Assembly (NCBI GenBank): GCA_027415455.1
Contig: DAIBSV010000083.1
Coordinates: forward strand, 1-8,307
Source of the DNA: Nitrospirota bacterium
GTDB taxonomy: Bacteria; Nitrospirota_A; Leptospirillia; Leptospirillales; Leptospirillaceae
Reading direction: 5' to 3'
DNA: 8,307 bases
Every line of letters starts with the position of its first letter. Position 1 is the first letter of the stretch. Positions 4,005-8,307 of this stretch are shown here, piece after piece. The position numbers and the translations under genes were made by a program. The notes beneath the pieces are model-generated. The model was not told the origin of the DNA, ran no database searches, and worked only from the letters and a program-made list of their open reading frames with translations.

Positions 4005-4394
4005 CTAACGCTTTTCGGCCATGAAGGCCTTGAACCGCTCCAGCTCTTCGAGGGCCCCCTGGAATTCTTCCAGATCGCTCATGAAGGGTCGAATTTTCTC
4101 CATTTCCTCCATGAAGCTTTTGAAGCGTTCCATCTCGGCCATGAGGGCCTTCATGCGGTCCTGTTCCGAAACGAACACCGCCCGGAAACGGTCCATCTCC
4201 GCGAGAAGGAGCTTGAACTTCTCCACCTCGGCCATGAAGGAGCGGAAGCGCTCCATCTCGACTGTCAGGGCCTTGAAGCGGTCGAGGTCGTTCATGGAGG
4301 GGCGGACATAGAATAATTGGGTCATGAAGGAGCGGAATTTTTCGAGCGTCGAGGCGGTCTTTCCGGGTTCCATGAATCTCTCCATTCTTTGCAA
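4005..4394 (-). CDS. Unknown protein built of tandem 10-residue amphipathic repeats
   Basis: No family recognised. From residue 17 almost the whole product divides into about eleven consecutive 10-residue units with consensus [LM]-[ED]-[RK]-F-[KR]-x-F-M-x-E; one unit carries a single extra residue and the second is degenerate. Examples are MERFRSFMAE, MERFKSFMEE and LERFKAFMAE. Hydrophobics fall at unit positions 1, 4, 7 and 8, acids at 2 and 10, bases at 3 and 5, so a long amphipathic helix is expected. There is no signal peptide, no transmembrane segment and no Cys. Stop is TAG. Start is uncertain: the longest frame begins at TTG 4394 (129 aa). ATG 4385 and ATG 4373 are also in frame; the last has GGAGAG a few bases upstream and is the best Shine-Dalgarno match (122 aa). 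The gene is convergent with the GH57 gene and divergent from the lipoprotein gene. Sustained periodicity in a single frame and a nearby promoter-like sequence argue for a real gene; the role could be granule coating, membrane association or oligomerisation (inference). Confidence 0.72.
   Translation of the reverse strand: MQRMERFMEPGKTASTLEKFRSFMTQLFYVRPSMNDLDRFKALTVEMERFRSFMAEVEKFKLLLAEMDRFRAVFVSEQDRMKALMAEMERFKSFMEEMEKIRPFMSDLEEFQGALEELERFKAFMAEKR
4021..4346 (-). repeat. Degenerate 30-bp tandem coding repeat (10-residue units)
   Basis: The decapeptide array of the minus-strand gene corresponds to roughly eleven 30-bp units that have diverged at DNA level but keep the register. The bases ATGAAGGAGCGGAA recur near 4234 and 4325, and CTCGGCCATGA recurs near 4134 and 4228. 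One unit is 33 bp. This indicates expansion by internal duplication followed by drift under selection on the protein pattern. Confidence 0.7.
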
Positions 4395-4591: not shown

Positions 4592-5647
4592 ATGCAGCTG
4601 ATCCGGCTCCTTCCCCGGTTGTCGATCATCCCGATCCTCCTTCCGATTCTTGCAGGGTGCGTCACAAACCCTGTTCACCCTCGCCCTTCCGGAAAGGCCG
4701 CGCCGCCATCTCCTCCTTCCGCACGTCCCCAGTCCGCCTTCCCTCTCACGAAAGGGCCAATTCCCTCTTCCGCTCCGGCTCCCGGGCCCCTATTTTCGTC
4801 CTCCTCTTCCTGCGCTTCCGTGATTGTTTCTGCCACGGGAACCCGTCTGGAATTTGTCATGGTTGGAACGGCCTCCTTCGAAAAGAACCTGTCGAAGGAG
4901 CGCCTTCTGGCCCTTGCCACTCAGGACGCCCTTGCCCGGATTGACCGGTGCGCACGCCTTGAGACGCGTCTGTCTCGATTCTACGATCGGACCTCTCTTC
5001 CGGATCCCGGGGATCCGGCGCGAATCCTGCGGATGATCCGGAAGGCCCTGGCCCCAAAGCCACACTACAGGATCGTCTCCGAGGACTGCGAGGAAAAGGG
5101 AGGCCGACAGTTTTGTCAGGTGACCCTCGAAGGAACTCTTCGGAGATTTCGGCAGGATTCTGGATTCCGGGTTCTCTCCGCAGGACCGGGACGGGGGGGT
5201 GCGTTCCGGGAGGGGGAGCCGATGACGCTTCGGTTTTCCCTGACAAAAAATGGCTGGATCTGGATTTTCGACGTGGACCGGAAACGGGGGGCAACGCTTC
5301 TCTTTCCGGGACCTCCCTTTCCGGATGTGAAAAACGGGATTGTGGCGAGGAAGGTCTTTGTTTTTCCCCCGGAGACCCAGGCGGCGATCCGGCTCGTTGT
5401 CGCCCTTCCTGCAGGGGCGCAAAAAAGGATCGGCCATCTCTGGGTCGTCGCACTCCGGAGGCCCGACTGGCCGGAGCTTGCAGCCCTCGGGAACGGAAAG
5501 CCGGAGTGGGGTGGGAGGATTTCCACGGAACGTTTCTTCGCGAGAATTCTCCCGTCTCTTGGGAGGATCGCTCCTTCCGGAGAATGGAGCCTTCAGGTGA
5601 TCCCCTATGAGATTCTTCCAAAACAGGGGACTTCACCCCAAAAATAA
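4592..5647 (+). CDS. Lipoprotein with DUF4384-like domain
   Basis: 351 residues. ATG 4592 is preceded by GAGGAG (4582-4587), 4 nt away. N-terminus: basic MQLIR, hydrophobic core to residue 20, lipobox LAGC with lipidation Cys23, then VTNP, so it should be exported and lipid-anchored, probably to the outer membrane because there is no Asp at +2. A Pro/Ser/Ala-rich linker (about 30-72) follows. A globular part (about 75-190) contains VGTASFEKNLSKERLLALATQDALARID, in the style of envelope proteins that begin with a LPP20/FlgT-like fold, and four Cys (120, 166, 175 and 74) that could form disulfides. Residues about 205-290 fit the DUF4384 pattern: EGEPMTLRFSL, NGWIWIFDVDRKRGATLLFP, VFVFPPET. This domain occurs in surface or secretion-linked proteins and kinase-associated proteins; its biochemical role is unclear. 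The gene stands alone between divergent and downstream non-coding regions, with no partner in view. The domain assignment is by recognition of pattern only. Confidence 0.82.
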   Translation: MQLIRLLPRLSIIPILLPILAGCVTNPVHPRPSGKAAPPSPPSARPQSAFPLTKGPIPSSAPAPGPLFSSSSSCASVIVSATGTRLEFVMVGTASFEKNLSKERLLALATQDALARIDRCARLETRLSRFYDRTSLPDPGDPARILRMIRKALAPKPHYRIVSEDCEEKGGRQFCQVTLEGTLRRFRQDSGFRVLSAGPGRGGAFREGEPMTLRFSLTKNGWIWIFDVDRKRGATLLFPGPPFPDVKNGIVARKVFVFPPETQAAIRLVVALPAGAQKRIGHLWVVALRRPDWPELAALGNGKPEWGGRISTERFFARILPSLGRIAPSGEWSLQVIPYEILPKQGTSPQK

Positions 5648-5934
5648 GGACCCCCGTTCCGGTCCTGAAACAGGTTTTCCCCCGGGCTGTGGCGTGAATA
5701 GGGACGTCCCCGGCCCCCGGAAGGGCAGAAAGAGTGGCTCCGGTTGCGTTCTGGACTTAAAAAAGGGCGTGTGCTATAGTCCGATGAGTTTGGCGGGTTC
5801 AAATGGAGACGATTTATGATCGCGATAAGAAATTCTTGAGCCAATTCGGACGATGCATCTGTTAGGATTGCAATGCGCCGGTAATGGACACCATCGGATG
5901 ACGGACGGAGAGAAGAGGGTCAGAATTCGATAGG
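5648..5934. other. Non-coding interval between the lipoprotein and efflux genes
   Basis: No convincing gene. It begins with an imperfectly terminator-like stem AGGACC/GGTCCT (5647-5666, 8-nt loop, no T-tract), then a perfect palindrome GGGACGTCCC (5701-5710), then a sigma-70-like promoter (separate entry). A 26-codon frame at 5853-5933 lacks a Shine-Dalgarno and holds the string LQCAGN, discussed in the findings. The reverse strand shows only frames without family resemblance. Confidence 0.6.
5752..5780 (+). promoter_or_regulatory. Putative extended -10 sigma-70 promoter, distal
   Basis: TGGACT (5752-5757, 4/6 match to TTGACA), 17-bp spacer, TATAGT (5775-5780, 5/6) preceded by TGC, the extended -10 arrangement. 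A start near 5787 would give about 250 nt of leader before the adaptor gene, running through a hairpin (5935-5955) and the three operators. It may drive the efflux operon or a small untranslated RNA; no gene begins close downstream. Confidence 0.45.
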
Positions 5935-5955
5935 GAGGCCGGTTCAGCCGGCTTC
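5935..5955 (+). other. Stem-loop upstream of the operator array
   Basis: GAGGCCGG (5935-5942) pairs with CCGGCTTC (5948-5955), including one G-U pair, around a 5-nt loop TTCAG. The 8-bp stem is GC-rich, but A-rich rather than U-rich sequence follows it, so it is not a standard intrinsic terminator. It lies immediately upstream of the proximal promoter and may insulate that promoter or shape the distal transcript. Confidence 0.4.
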
Positions 5956-5984
5956 ATGACAATAAAAATTTCATAGATTATGAA
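5956..5984 (+). promoter_or_regulatory. Putative proximal promoter of the efflux operon, overlapping operator 1
   Basis: ATGACA (5956-5961, 5/6 match to TTGACA), a 17-bp spacer and TATGAA (5979-5984, 4/6 match to TATAAT). The -10 coincides with the right arm of the first palindrome, and the expected start (about 5991) falls in the second. A protein bound to the palindromes would block polymerase, the usual layout of a repressible efflux operon. The leader would be about 50 nt. Confidence 0.5.
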
Positions 5985-5985
5985 A
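5969..5985. promoter_or_regulatory. Operator 1, palindrome TTTCATA-gat-TATGAAA
   Basis: Perfect 7-bp arms around a 3-bp centre (17 bp, centre 5977). Identical arms occur at 6007-6023. Overlaps the proximal -10. Size and symmetry suit a dimeric helix-turn-helix repressor, most probably of the TetR family that commonly controls RND operons; no regulator gene is present in the window. Confidence 0.75.
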
Positions 5986-5987
5986 GC

Positions 5988-6004
5988 TTTCATGGTGAAT
6001 GAAA
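5988..6004. promoter_or_regulatory. Operator 2, palindrome TTTCAT-ggtga-ATGAAA
   Basis: Same arms as the flanking sites, with 6 bp matching each side, centred at 5996, exactly 19 bp from the first and the third. Also, ATGAAAGCTTTCAT (5980-5993) is a perfect 14-bp palindrome formed by the right arm of operator 1 and the left arm of this site, so alternative binding registers exist. Confidence 0.65.
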
Positions 6005-6006
6005 TG

Positions 6007-6023
6007 TTTCATAGGCTATGAAA
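6007..6023. promoter_or_regulatory. Operator 3, palindrome TTTCATA-ggc-TATGAAA
   Basis: Perfect 7-bp arms, centre 6015, ending 17 bp before the GTG start of the adaptor gene. Only the 3-bp centre differs from operator 1, which indicates selection on the arms. It lies downstream of the predicted proximal start site, where bound protein would act as a roadblock. Confidence 0.75.
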
Positions 6024-6040
6024 GCGACTGAAAGTTGGCA

Positions 6041-7123
6041 GTGAGACTGACGCTTTCCAGAAAAAATCGCATTCTCGTTGGAGGTCTGGTCCTTCTCGTC
6101 CTGACCTCCGTCCTATTCTATGCTGCCCGCAAGCCGGGCTCCGTTTCTTCCCCGCTCCCCCTCGAGAAAGCCTCTCTTCCCTACGATCCCTCCCGCTATC
6201 GCCCCGGCCGCGTCCGCTACCGCCACTTCGAACTCTGGACCTCGATTCCCGGGGTCATCCACGGTTTCCGGAAAGCGATCGTCTATGGCCATGTTCCGGG
6301 GTATCTCAAATTTTTAAATGTCGACAAGGGGGACTGGGTCACCCGGGGACAGGTCCTGGGATACATCTACGATCCGGAGCTTTATCAGAGCTGGCAGCGG
6401 GCGCTTGCGGAAGCCGAGATCGCCCACATCACCTTCCTCCGGAAATACCGGGTCTGGAAGGACGACCCCCGGGTCATCTCCCTGCAGCGGGTCCAGATGG
6501 CCGAGGCGCTCTGGAAGGAACGCGAGGCACGGGCAAAGTATTACCATTCCCTTGTCCGCTACAAGACAATCGTCGCCCCCTTCACCGGCATCATTACTCA
6601 TCGTTATGTGGATCCCTGGAACCTCGTCTCCCGGGGAACCGGGGGGACGACTCCCGCCCTTCCCATCGTCAAGGTCACGGATGTGGACGAAATGCGTCTC
6701 TATGTCGGCGTTCCCGAGCATTTCGTCCGATTTATCAAACGGGGATTGCCCACGGAACTCCGGGCCCAGGGACTTCCGGGCCAGATCTTCAAGGCCCGGG
6801 TCACCCGGTATGCCTTCCGTCTCAACCCGGAAACGCGCACGATGCGGACCGAAATCGATGTCGATAATCCCCGTCATCTCCTTCACCCAGGCATGTTCGT
6901 GGATGCCCGCATCCGCCTTCATGTCTATCCCCACGTCCTCTCCGTCCACCATATGGCGGTGATCGAGGAGCGCCACGGAAATTTCATTTATGTCCTCCGG
7001 AACGGAAAGAAGGTCAAGCGTCCTGTGGTCGTGGGGTACCGGAACGGGGACTACACCGAGATTCTCCAGGGGCTCGACGGGTCGGAGACAGTCCTCGTCA
7101 AGCTTCACAAAACAATTTTCTAA
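6041..7123 (+). CDS. RND efflux membrane-fusion (periplasmic adaptor) protein
   Basis: 360 residues from GTG 6041. The frame extends to TTG 6035, but GAAAG (6030-6034) is correctly spaced (6 nt) only for the GTG. HlyD/AcrA-family adaptor linking an inner-membrane RND pump to an outer-membrane channel. Seen: basic N-terminus and one membrane anchor (about 11-28, ILVGGLVLLVLTSVLFYAA) with no lipobox Cys, so anchored rather than lipidated. First lipoyl half about 79-110 (GHVPGYLKFLNVDKGDWVTRGQ); a short alpha-hairpin about 112-172; second lipoyl half about 174-198 (KTIVAPFTGIITHRYVDP); beta-barrel about 212-295, including LNPETRTMRTEIDVDNP and LLHPGMFVDARI; membrane-proximal domain from about 298 (MAVIEERHGNFIYVLRNGK). 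Length is normal for the family. The pump gene follows after 58 bp, forming an operon likely controlled by the operator array upstream. The substrate cannot be read from sequence; no His/Met-rich metal motif as in CusB is seen. Confidence 0.9.
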   Translation: MRLTLSRKNRILVGGLVLLVLTSVLFYAARKPGSVSSPLPLEKASLPYDPSRYRPGRVRYRHFELWTSIPGVIHGFRKAIVYGHVPGYLKFLNVDKGDWVTRGQVLGYIYDPELYQSWQRALAEAEIAHITFLRKYRVWKDDPRVISLQRVQMAEALWKEREARAKYYHSLVRYKTIVAPFTGIITHRYVDPWNLVSRGTGGTTPALPIVKVTDVDEMRLYVGVPEHFVRFIKRGLPTELRAQGLPGQIFKARVTRYAFRLNPETRTMRTEIDVDNPRHLLHPGMFVDARIRLHVYPHVLSVHHMAVIEERHGNFIYVLRNGKKVKRPVVVGYRNGDYTEILQGLDGSETVLVKLHKTIF

Positions 7124-7181: not shown

Positions 7182-8307
7182 ATGTTTCTAGTCAGGATGT
7201 CGCTCAAGAGCCCCTATTCGATCATCGCGATGGCCCTGGCCATCGTTCTGCTGGGCGCCCAGAGCCTCTCCTCCATGAACGTCTCCATTCTTCCCCGGAT
7301 TCCCCTGCCGGTCGTCGAGGTCCTGACCGTCTTCCCGGGAATGAATGTCTACAACACCGAGATGGACATCACCGAACAGATGGAGCGCATCATCCTCCAG
7401 GCCCCTTACATCCGGTCGGTGAAGTCGGAGAGTCTGGTCGGGATCAGCATGATCCAGATCCGCTTCCGGTCGACCTATTCGCTGTCGGCCGGGGTCTCGA
7501 TGGTGACATCGCTCGTCTACTCTTCGCTCAAGTATCTTCCTCCCGGCATCTTTCCCCCCATCATCATTCCCTTCGGCATCTCGGCCATCCCCATTGCGGA
7601 TCTGGTCCTCTCCTCGAAGGAGCTGACCCAGATGCAGATGTTCGACCTCGGATATTACAATGTCCGCTCCCAGATGGGGACAGTCCCCGGCGTGGCCGCT
7701 CCCCCCGTTTTCGGAGGTCTCTCCCGGCAGATCCAGGTCTACACCAACAATACCGCTCTTCTGGCCCGGGGGCTCACGATCTGGGATGTGGTCAACGCCC
7801 TGAACAGGCAGAACATCGTCTGGCCGGCGGGATTCGCCAAGATCGGCGACATGAGCTACAACGTCTTTGTGAACGCCCTTCTGGGGCCGGTCAAGACGAT
7901 CGGGGACGTTCCGATCAAGGTCGAGCATGGACAACCCGTTTACATCAAGGATGTCGGAGTTGCCAAGGACTCCTACCGCATCCAGACCAATCCCGTCCGG
8001 GTCGACGGCCGGAAATCCGTGTACATTCCCGTTCTGAAGCAGGAAGGGGCCAACACCGTCAAGGTGATCGACGCCACGAGAAACGCGATCAAGACCTTCT
8101 ACGGTCTTCCGAAAAGCCTCGACATCTCGCTGGTCTTTGACCAGTCCGTCTACATCCGGGACTCGGTCGCATCGCTTGAGCGTGAAGGGATTGTCGGAAT
8201 CCTTCTGACCGCGGCCATGATCTTGATCTTTCTTGGAAACGTCCGCTCCACCCGCATCCATGCAGACACACCCCACAGATACCCGCCCGGCCCACGCACA
8301 CGCCGGA
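7182..8307 (+). CDS. RND efflux pump inner-membrane subunit (HAE-1/AcrB-like), 3'-truncated
   Basis: First 375 codons of a protein normally about 1,000-1,050 residues; no stop before the window end. ATG 7182 has GGGAG at 7170-7174, spacing 7. Proton-driven tripartite exporter subunit. Seen: TM1 about 12-32 after MSLKSPYSIIA; VSILPRIPLPVVEVLTVFPGM (34-54), the conserved entry into the porter domain; DITEQMERIILQAPYI (62-77); PPGIFPP (120-126); VPGVAAPPVFGG (168-179); docking and second porter segment to about 330; then TM2 start EGIVGILLTAAMILIFLGNVRST (335-357). Most similar in style to the HAE-1 branch; CusA-type metal-pump features are not seen. Odd: after residue 358 the sequence becomes HADTPHRYPPGPRTRR, hydrophilic and Pro/Arg-rich, where the family has hydrophobic residues and a conserved Pro, so the last ~50 bases are suspect. 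The first ~357 residues are confident. Confidence 0.9.
   Translation, partial: MFLVRMSLKSPYSIIAMALAIVLLGAQSLSSMNVSILPRIPLPVVEVLTVFPGMNVYNTEMDITEQMERIILQAPYIRSVKSESLVGISMIQIRFRSTYSLSAGVSMVTSLVYSSLKYLPPGIFPPIIIPFGISAIPIADLVLSSKELTQMQMFDLGYYNVRSQMGTVPGVAAPPVFGGLSRQIQVYTNNTALLARGLTIWDVVNALNRQNIVWPAGFAKIGDMSYNVFVNALLGPVKTIGDVPIKVEHGQPVYIKDVGVAKDSYRIQTNPVRVDGRKSVYIPVLKQEGANTVKVIDATRNAIKTFYGLPKSLDISLVFDQSVYIRDSVASLEREGIVGILLTAAMILIFLGNVRSTRIHADTPHRYPPGPRTRR

Follow-up and report, generated by a model that had tools for sequence, protein, structure and literature searches.

An invariant-armed array of three palindromes ahead of an RND efflux operon in Leptospirillum-like bacteria, a candidate operator

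The described systems closest to the locus presented here come from three families of regulators. QacR, a member of the TetR family, binds as two dimers cooperatively to two overlapping palindromes, the MarR-family operators of RND pumps (MexR) are sites of 16-20 bp that precede the RND operon, and LysR-type regions contain two to three sites of which the outer two are bound better than the middle one, each as given in the excerpted text of PMC6018408. The window, which is the whole stretch of 8307 bp of DNA that was analysed, belongs to a Leptospirillum-like bacterium and contains an array of three palindromes that precedes an efflux-pump gene pair encoding an adaptor and an RND permease. As far as the excerpts describe the TetR efflux operators of the QacR type, the likeness lies in a palindromic, here putative, operator of an efflux gene; the array is composed of three separate 17-bp sites, whereas the QacR type is one extended 28-bp site. 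Unlike the TetR systems, this locus has no visible TetR gene, and the TetR set common to the array genomes has another palindrome upstream. Operators of the MexR type, within the same excerpts, are alike in site size and in their place before an RND operon, but the array has three evenly spaced sites and no MarR gene was seen at the locus. The LysR-type regions, again as excerpted, share with the array a middle copy that is the odd one, but here the copies are full palindromes at an even 19-bp pitch and no divergent LysR gene adjoins them.

The array consists of three copies of TTTCAT-N5-ATGAAA that begin at 5969, 5988 and 6007, their starts 19 bp apart. Site 1 (5969-5985, TTTCATAGATTATGAAA), site 2 (5988-6004, TTTCATGGTGAATGAAA) and site 3 (6007-6023, TTTCATAGGCTATGAAA) are each 17 bp long, carry no strand assignment and are separated by 2-bp gaps, for a total of 55 bp. 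A search of the window for the 14-letter motif TTTCATANNNTATGAAA with at most three mismatches returned three matches, with zero, two and zero mismatches at sites 1, 2 and 3 respectively, where 0.08 were expected and none of 200 shuffles reached three; the three palindromes, their exact 19-bp phasing and their positions therefore stand as given in a preliminary description of this DNA. Base composition by itself predicts about 1.4e-20 to 1.4e-18 occurrences of six fixed hexamers so arranged per 8.3 kb. That description had also called the middle copy degenerate, which holds for its seventh base pair, mismatched in the window only there (G..A), but not for the hexamer arms TTTCAT/ATGAAA, which are perfect in all three copies; the seventh pair is G..C in six of the 13 sequences aligned, so that copy 2 is there a palindrome with 7-bp arms. 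Its reading of the array in two registers is likewise half sustained, as ATGAAAGCTTTCAT forms a mismatch-free palindrome of 14 bp in each of the 13 sequences, but the outer two half-sites vary no more than the inner ones do, in agreement with three inverted sites. The pitch of 19 bp corresponds to 1.8 helical turns (10.5 bp per turn), so the spacing is even and the sites lie on different faces of the helix.

The relatives were selected through the adaptor protein, independently of the motif. A search of one genome collection provided 14 loci, of which L001-L011 encode adaptors that are 76-99% identical and the distant L012-L014 were left out, and a class-level search of a second collection provided 21 genomes, 12 of them with an adaptor orthologue at 76-99%. 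The array is present at the same place and ungapped in all 12 genomes with a close orthologue as well as in the window, which gives a conservation set of 13 sequences with nine distinct rows over 79 columns. The hexamers of sites 1, 2 and 3 are identical in all 13, and 48 of the 55 alignment columns are invariant, the seven variable ones being five in the site centres and two in linker 2. Over the array, all 12 genomes match the window at 50-55 of 55 bases. Fourfold sites of the adaptor gene exhibit 44-57% identity to the window in L006-L010, the five most diverged, and 60-97% in the other six counted, with L044 left out of these figures due to a coding frame that breaks early (19 fourfold sites). 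The 60 bp upstream of the array, compared ungapped, match at 11-16 positions in nine of the 12, at 29 in L003, 53 in L002 and 60 in L001, figures that overstate the drift since gapped alignment shows a few shared blocks in the closer relatives. A G follows the left hexamer (TTTCATRG) in 39 of 39 copies and a GC follows sites 1 and 3 in 13 of 13 sequences, neither of which would be explained by plain dimer symmetry.

The array is absent from all four of the more distant orthologues, at 55-65% (G012, G014, G015, G018), so the pump itself can do without it; the refuting outcome named in the preliminary description, loss of the array from relatives that keep the operon, is not seen in the 12 close-orthologue genomes. 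G018 contains a lone one-mismatch site (L177:11482-11498, TTTGATGACAGATGAAA), whose first base is 45 bases upstream of the start codon adopted. A site as good was obtained in 12 of 1000 shuffles of the region, four genomes having been examined, and the lone site could be a remnant, an ancestral form or a chance match. The other five of the 21 genomes encode more distant adaptors only and are uninformative on the array.

A two-site pattern with at most three mismatches, searched in 395 genomes of the phylum, was found in the same 12 genomes at the array only, and otherwise once each in G077 and G369, with three mismatches. No second array was found in the 12 array genomes, in which the operator reading thereby withstands the other refuting outcome of the preliminary description, scattering without link to promoters. 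Outside the array, five exact single sites were identified in 11 genomes, four of which are one word inside one gene (L023, L180, L181, L182) that we take to be Lon-like, and the fifth (G001:C48) is located within a 463-codon stop-free frame. One-mismatch sites in the 12 genomes amount to 5-16 forward matches per genome versus 0-4 for the reversed control, an excess that persists beyond the three array sites. Among the matches listed, eight of eight one-mismatch places inspected are within stop-free frames of at least 235 codons, one of these eight (L188) at the very edge of its frame; one word is common to G001 and G002 (L183, L184) and a similar word occurs in the same protein stretch of both (L185, L186). 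A literature search by motif spellings and topic, covering titles and abstract openings, did not return the motif or the array.

The adaptor (membrane fusion) gene (6041-7123, plus strand) contains HlyD_D23 and HlyD_3 domains, with RND_mfp identified in L001, and the RND permease gene (7182-8258, plus strand) contains an ACR_tran domain and is cut by the contig end, the L001 permease being 1058 aa long. The RND operon postulated downstream of the array is thereby confirmed by family search. Upstream of the array is a DUF4384 gene (4592-5647). The adaptor gene most likely begins with the GTG at 6041, 17 bases past the array, and both this start codon and the 17-base distance are found in 13 of 13 sequences. 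A GAAAG at 6031-6035 on the plus strand, invariant in all 13, may serve as a weak ribosome-binding site. The sole element found by a promoter scan of 5640-6100 is TGGACT-N17-TATAGT (5752-5780, plus strand), a promoter-like sequence with a TG ahead of the second hexamer (one found, 0.3 expected in shuffles); judged by eye in the alignment, most relatives with sequence there have a similar element. A possible weak promoter, ATGACA-N17-TATGAA, extends over site 1 (5956-5984, plus strand); it was noticed by eye and is absent from the scan output, and its hexamers are separated by 17-19 bases in the closer relatives while the -35 is not kept in the others.

We consider it fairly probable that the array is an operator that controls the pump genes and takes up three dimers of a one-component regulator, encoded at an unlinked place and probably a repressor. 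Each site would be occupied by a single homodimer, and the DNA-binding protein is probably of the helix-turn-helix type, because the half-site centres are 11 bp apart, which is about one helical turn. One hexamer in all six half-sites is as expected if a single protein reads all of them, and its presence at six places favours a protein that reads DNA over an RNA. Three neighbouring dimers, perhaps bound cooperatively, would cover the region from the possible -10 in site 1 through to 17 bases before the GTG, and could block initiation there or stop polymerase arriving from the promoter at 5752-5780. The adaptor-RND operon would then stay silent until the protein is released by a signal, and the regulator gene would be encoded elsewhere. 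The promoter over site 1, which is weak and was missed by the scan, counts against the operator reading, as do the G after each left hexamer, the GC after sites 1 and 3 and the lack of the array in the four distant orthologues. An efflux repressor with a single target and no site before its own gene is unusual. The 55-bp block, near-fixed amid upstream DNA that has drifted, offers a handle for finding the regulator and could be used as one probe, with one target operon and about a dozen species to compare.

Alternatively, the array could act in the mRNA leader, where alternative hairpins before the weak ribosome-binding site would control translation or early termination, a reading that we regard as unlikely. 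Transcription of the array is possible given the promoter-like element 188 bp upstream, the constant distance of array to GTG would suit such a role, and one fold pairs the conserved GC of linker 1 with the GC after site 3. Folds are stable against shuffles in four of four sequences folded (z -2.95 to -4.93), but strong folds are expected of palindromes anyway, and the best fold varies among relatives. No pairs are changed on both sides in three structures, a count that is uninformative since the arms are invariant. The six identical half-sites are unnecessary for hairpins, and an Rfam search of the window provided no match at gathering and three matches at E 2.2-3.9, far below it.

Activators turn on many efflux genes, and the sites could instead be recognised by an activator or by a response regulator that turns on the pump genes, which appears quite unlikely. 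The use of two to three sites with the outer ones bound better is common among LysR-type regulators in the excerpts of PMC6018408, but the layout given there includes a divergent regulator gene nearby, and none is seen here. The end of the array, 17 bases from the start codon, is also close for an activator, and the one response regulator borne by the locus sits in genomes without the array. A role apart from the pump, for example in organising the chromosome or in a mobile element, would agree with the single place per genome in the 12 genomes but is highly improbable given the fixed distance to the adaptor gene (13 of 13) and a search of viral contigs in which the exact triple pattern had zero matches.

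For the favoured operator reading, the regulator has to be sought away from the pump genes. No regulator gene was seen next to the operon in the window or where the flanks of the relatives are readable. In L001, to which the family search of this flank was confined, the permease gene is followed by an oppositely oriented YgfZ-like gene, a second adaptor gene and a TolC-like gene, after which comes a reductase that is presumably TrxB-like; the available flanks of other relatives show these genes as well. The earlier proposal of a regulator either distal or past the pump gene is accordingly narrowed, as the latter was not seen in the available flanks and the former agrees with the unlinked gene suggested here. 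A TetR gene is usually, though not obligatorily, adjacent to its operator. None was identified by family search among the seven proteins of the window, nor in the flanks of 11 relatives among the ORFs read by eye and in part family-searched. TetR matches occur in 21 of 21 class genomes, with one each in G004, G010 and G011, so at most one TetR set can be common to the 12 array genomes as assembled, and this set is also found in relatives without the array. Upstream of it, in 11 of the 12 array genomes (L089 of G007 was left out of the alignment, and assemblies may be incomplete), there is a TTGATTG/CAATCAA-like or AATTAATTG/CAATTAATT palindrome and not TTTCAT/ATGAAA. This palindrome is plausibly the operator of that TetR protein. 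The idea of a TetR-type regulator with the array word before its own gene is weakened by this result, and TetR as the binder of the array is likewise weakened and unsupported.

The conserved ATTGATTGGTTAATCAAT-type palindrome is positioned, in L080-L088, L090 and L092, approximately 100-150 bases ahead of the helix-turn-helix and upstream of a TetR gene that is found class-wide. MarR matches were obtained in 19 of 21 genomes, none seen at the pump locus and none in the array genome G006, whose completeness is not stated. LysR matches were obtained in 20 of 21, including all 12 array genomes, with none listed on the pump stretch, and ArsR matches in 20 of 21, the array genome G004 having none. 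The MarR, LysR and ArsR gene lists single out no family as restricted to array genomes and hold no stand-out candidate.

G012, G015 and G018 have an extra gene, flanked by those for the YgfZ-like protein and the second adaptor, that encodes a protein with receiver, sigma-54-interaction and Fis-type domains. This NtrC-type response-regulator gene (L176:5353-6741, L177:4530-5870, L175:4498-5910, minus strand) is at the locus in three of the four array-lacking orthologue genomes, which are those with a readable locus, and not in the array genomes, where the best matches to it are 38-47% identical and lie elsewhere in the genome. A relative of the regulator (47%) directly precedes the second adaptor in G016, and fragments are located at contig ends in G014 (66%) and G017 (47%). 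The adaptor-to-adaptor distance is 5.7-5.8 kb in 10 of 12 array genomes, G003 and G004 being outside the count with their two adaptors on different contigs, versus 6.8-7.1 kb in the three genomes with the extra gene. A WGTCA-N6-TGACW palindrome precedes the adaptor in three of the four array-lacking genomes and in none of the 13 array sequences, two of which are short; no convincing sigma-54 promoter was found before the adaptor in the array-lacking genomes. The array and the NtrC-type gene at the locus would represent an apparent change of control, a contrast that rests on one split of the tree and counts as one event, not many. Tentatively, this could be a lineage-level swap from an NtrC-type two-component regulator at the locus to a dedicated, single-target and unlinked regulator with an undescribed operator, possibly with a second role for the repeats in the mRNA leader. 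The contrast with the response-regulator relatives would open the replacement of one kind of pump control by another to direct testing in bacteria that are for the most part uncultured.

All 10 array stretches that extend far enough, but none of three array-lacking ones, contain a coiled-coil-looking frame of 129 codons with abundant MERF-like repeats (4005-4394, minus strand), located between the array and a glycoside-hydrolase gene. The frame exhibited no known DNA-binding family in a family search, which gave one sub-threshold match, and a protein search provided one relative; it is not thought to be the regulator of the array, though its co-occurrence with the array stands. A leader peptide from the ATGAAA words was considered and rejected, as short frames exist by eye but the changes are mostly non-synonymous. 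In L009 (9965-10007) the frame from an ATG within site 2 runs without a stop into that of the adaptor (373 codons), where the other 12 sequences have a TGA. Across 8254 aligned positions, the window and L001 share 98.5% identity. Its last 57 bases (8251-8307) match L001 15431-15375 reversed, the start of the YgfZ-like gene, and this match overlaps the preceding L001 match by 8 bases, with the joint at approximately 8251-8258. The contig end of the window is probably chimeric and would thus cut the permease, which in L001 reads on to its full length.
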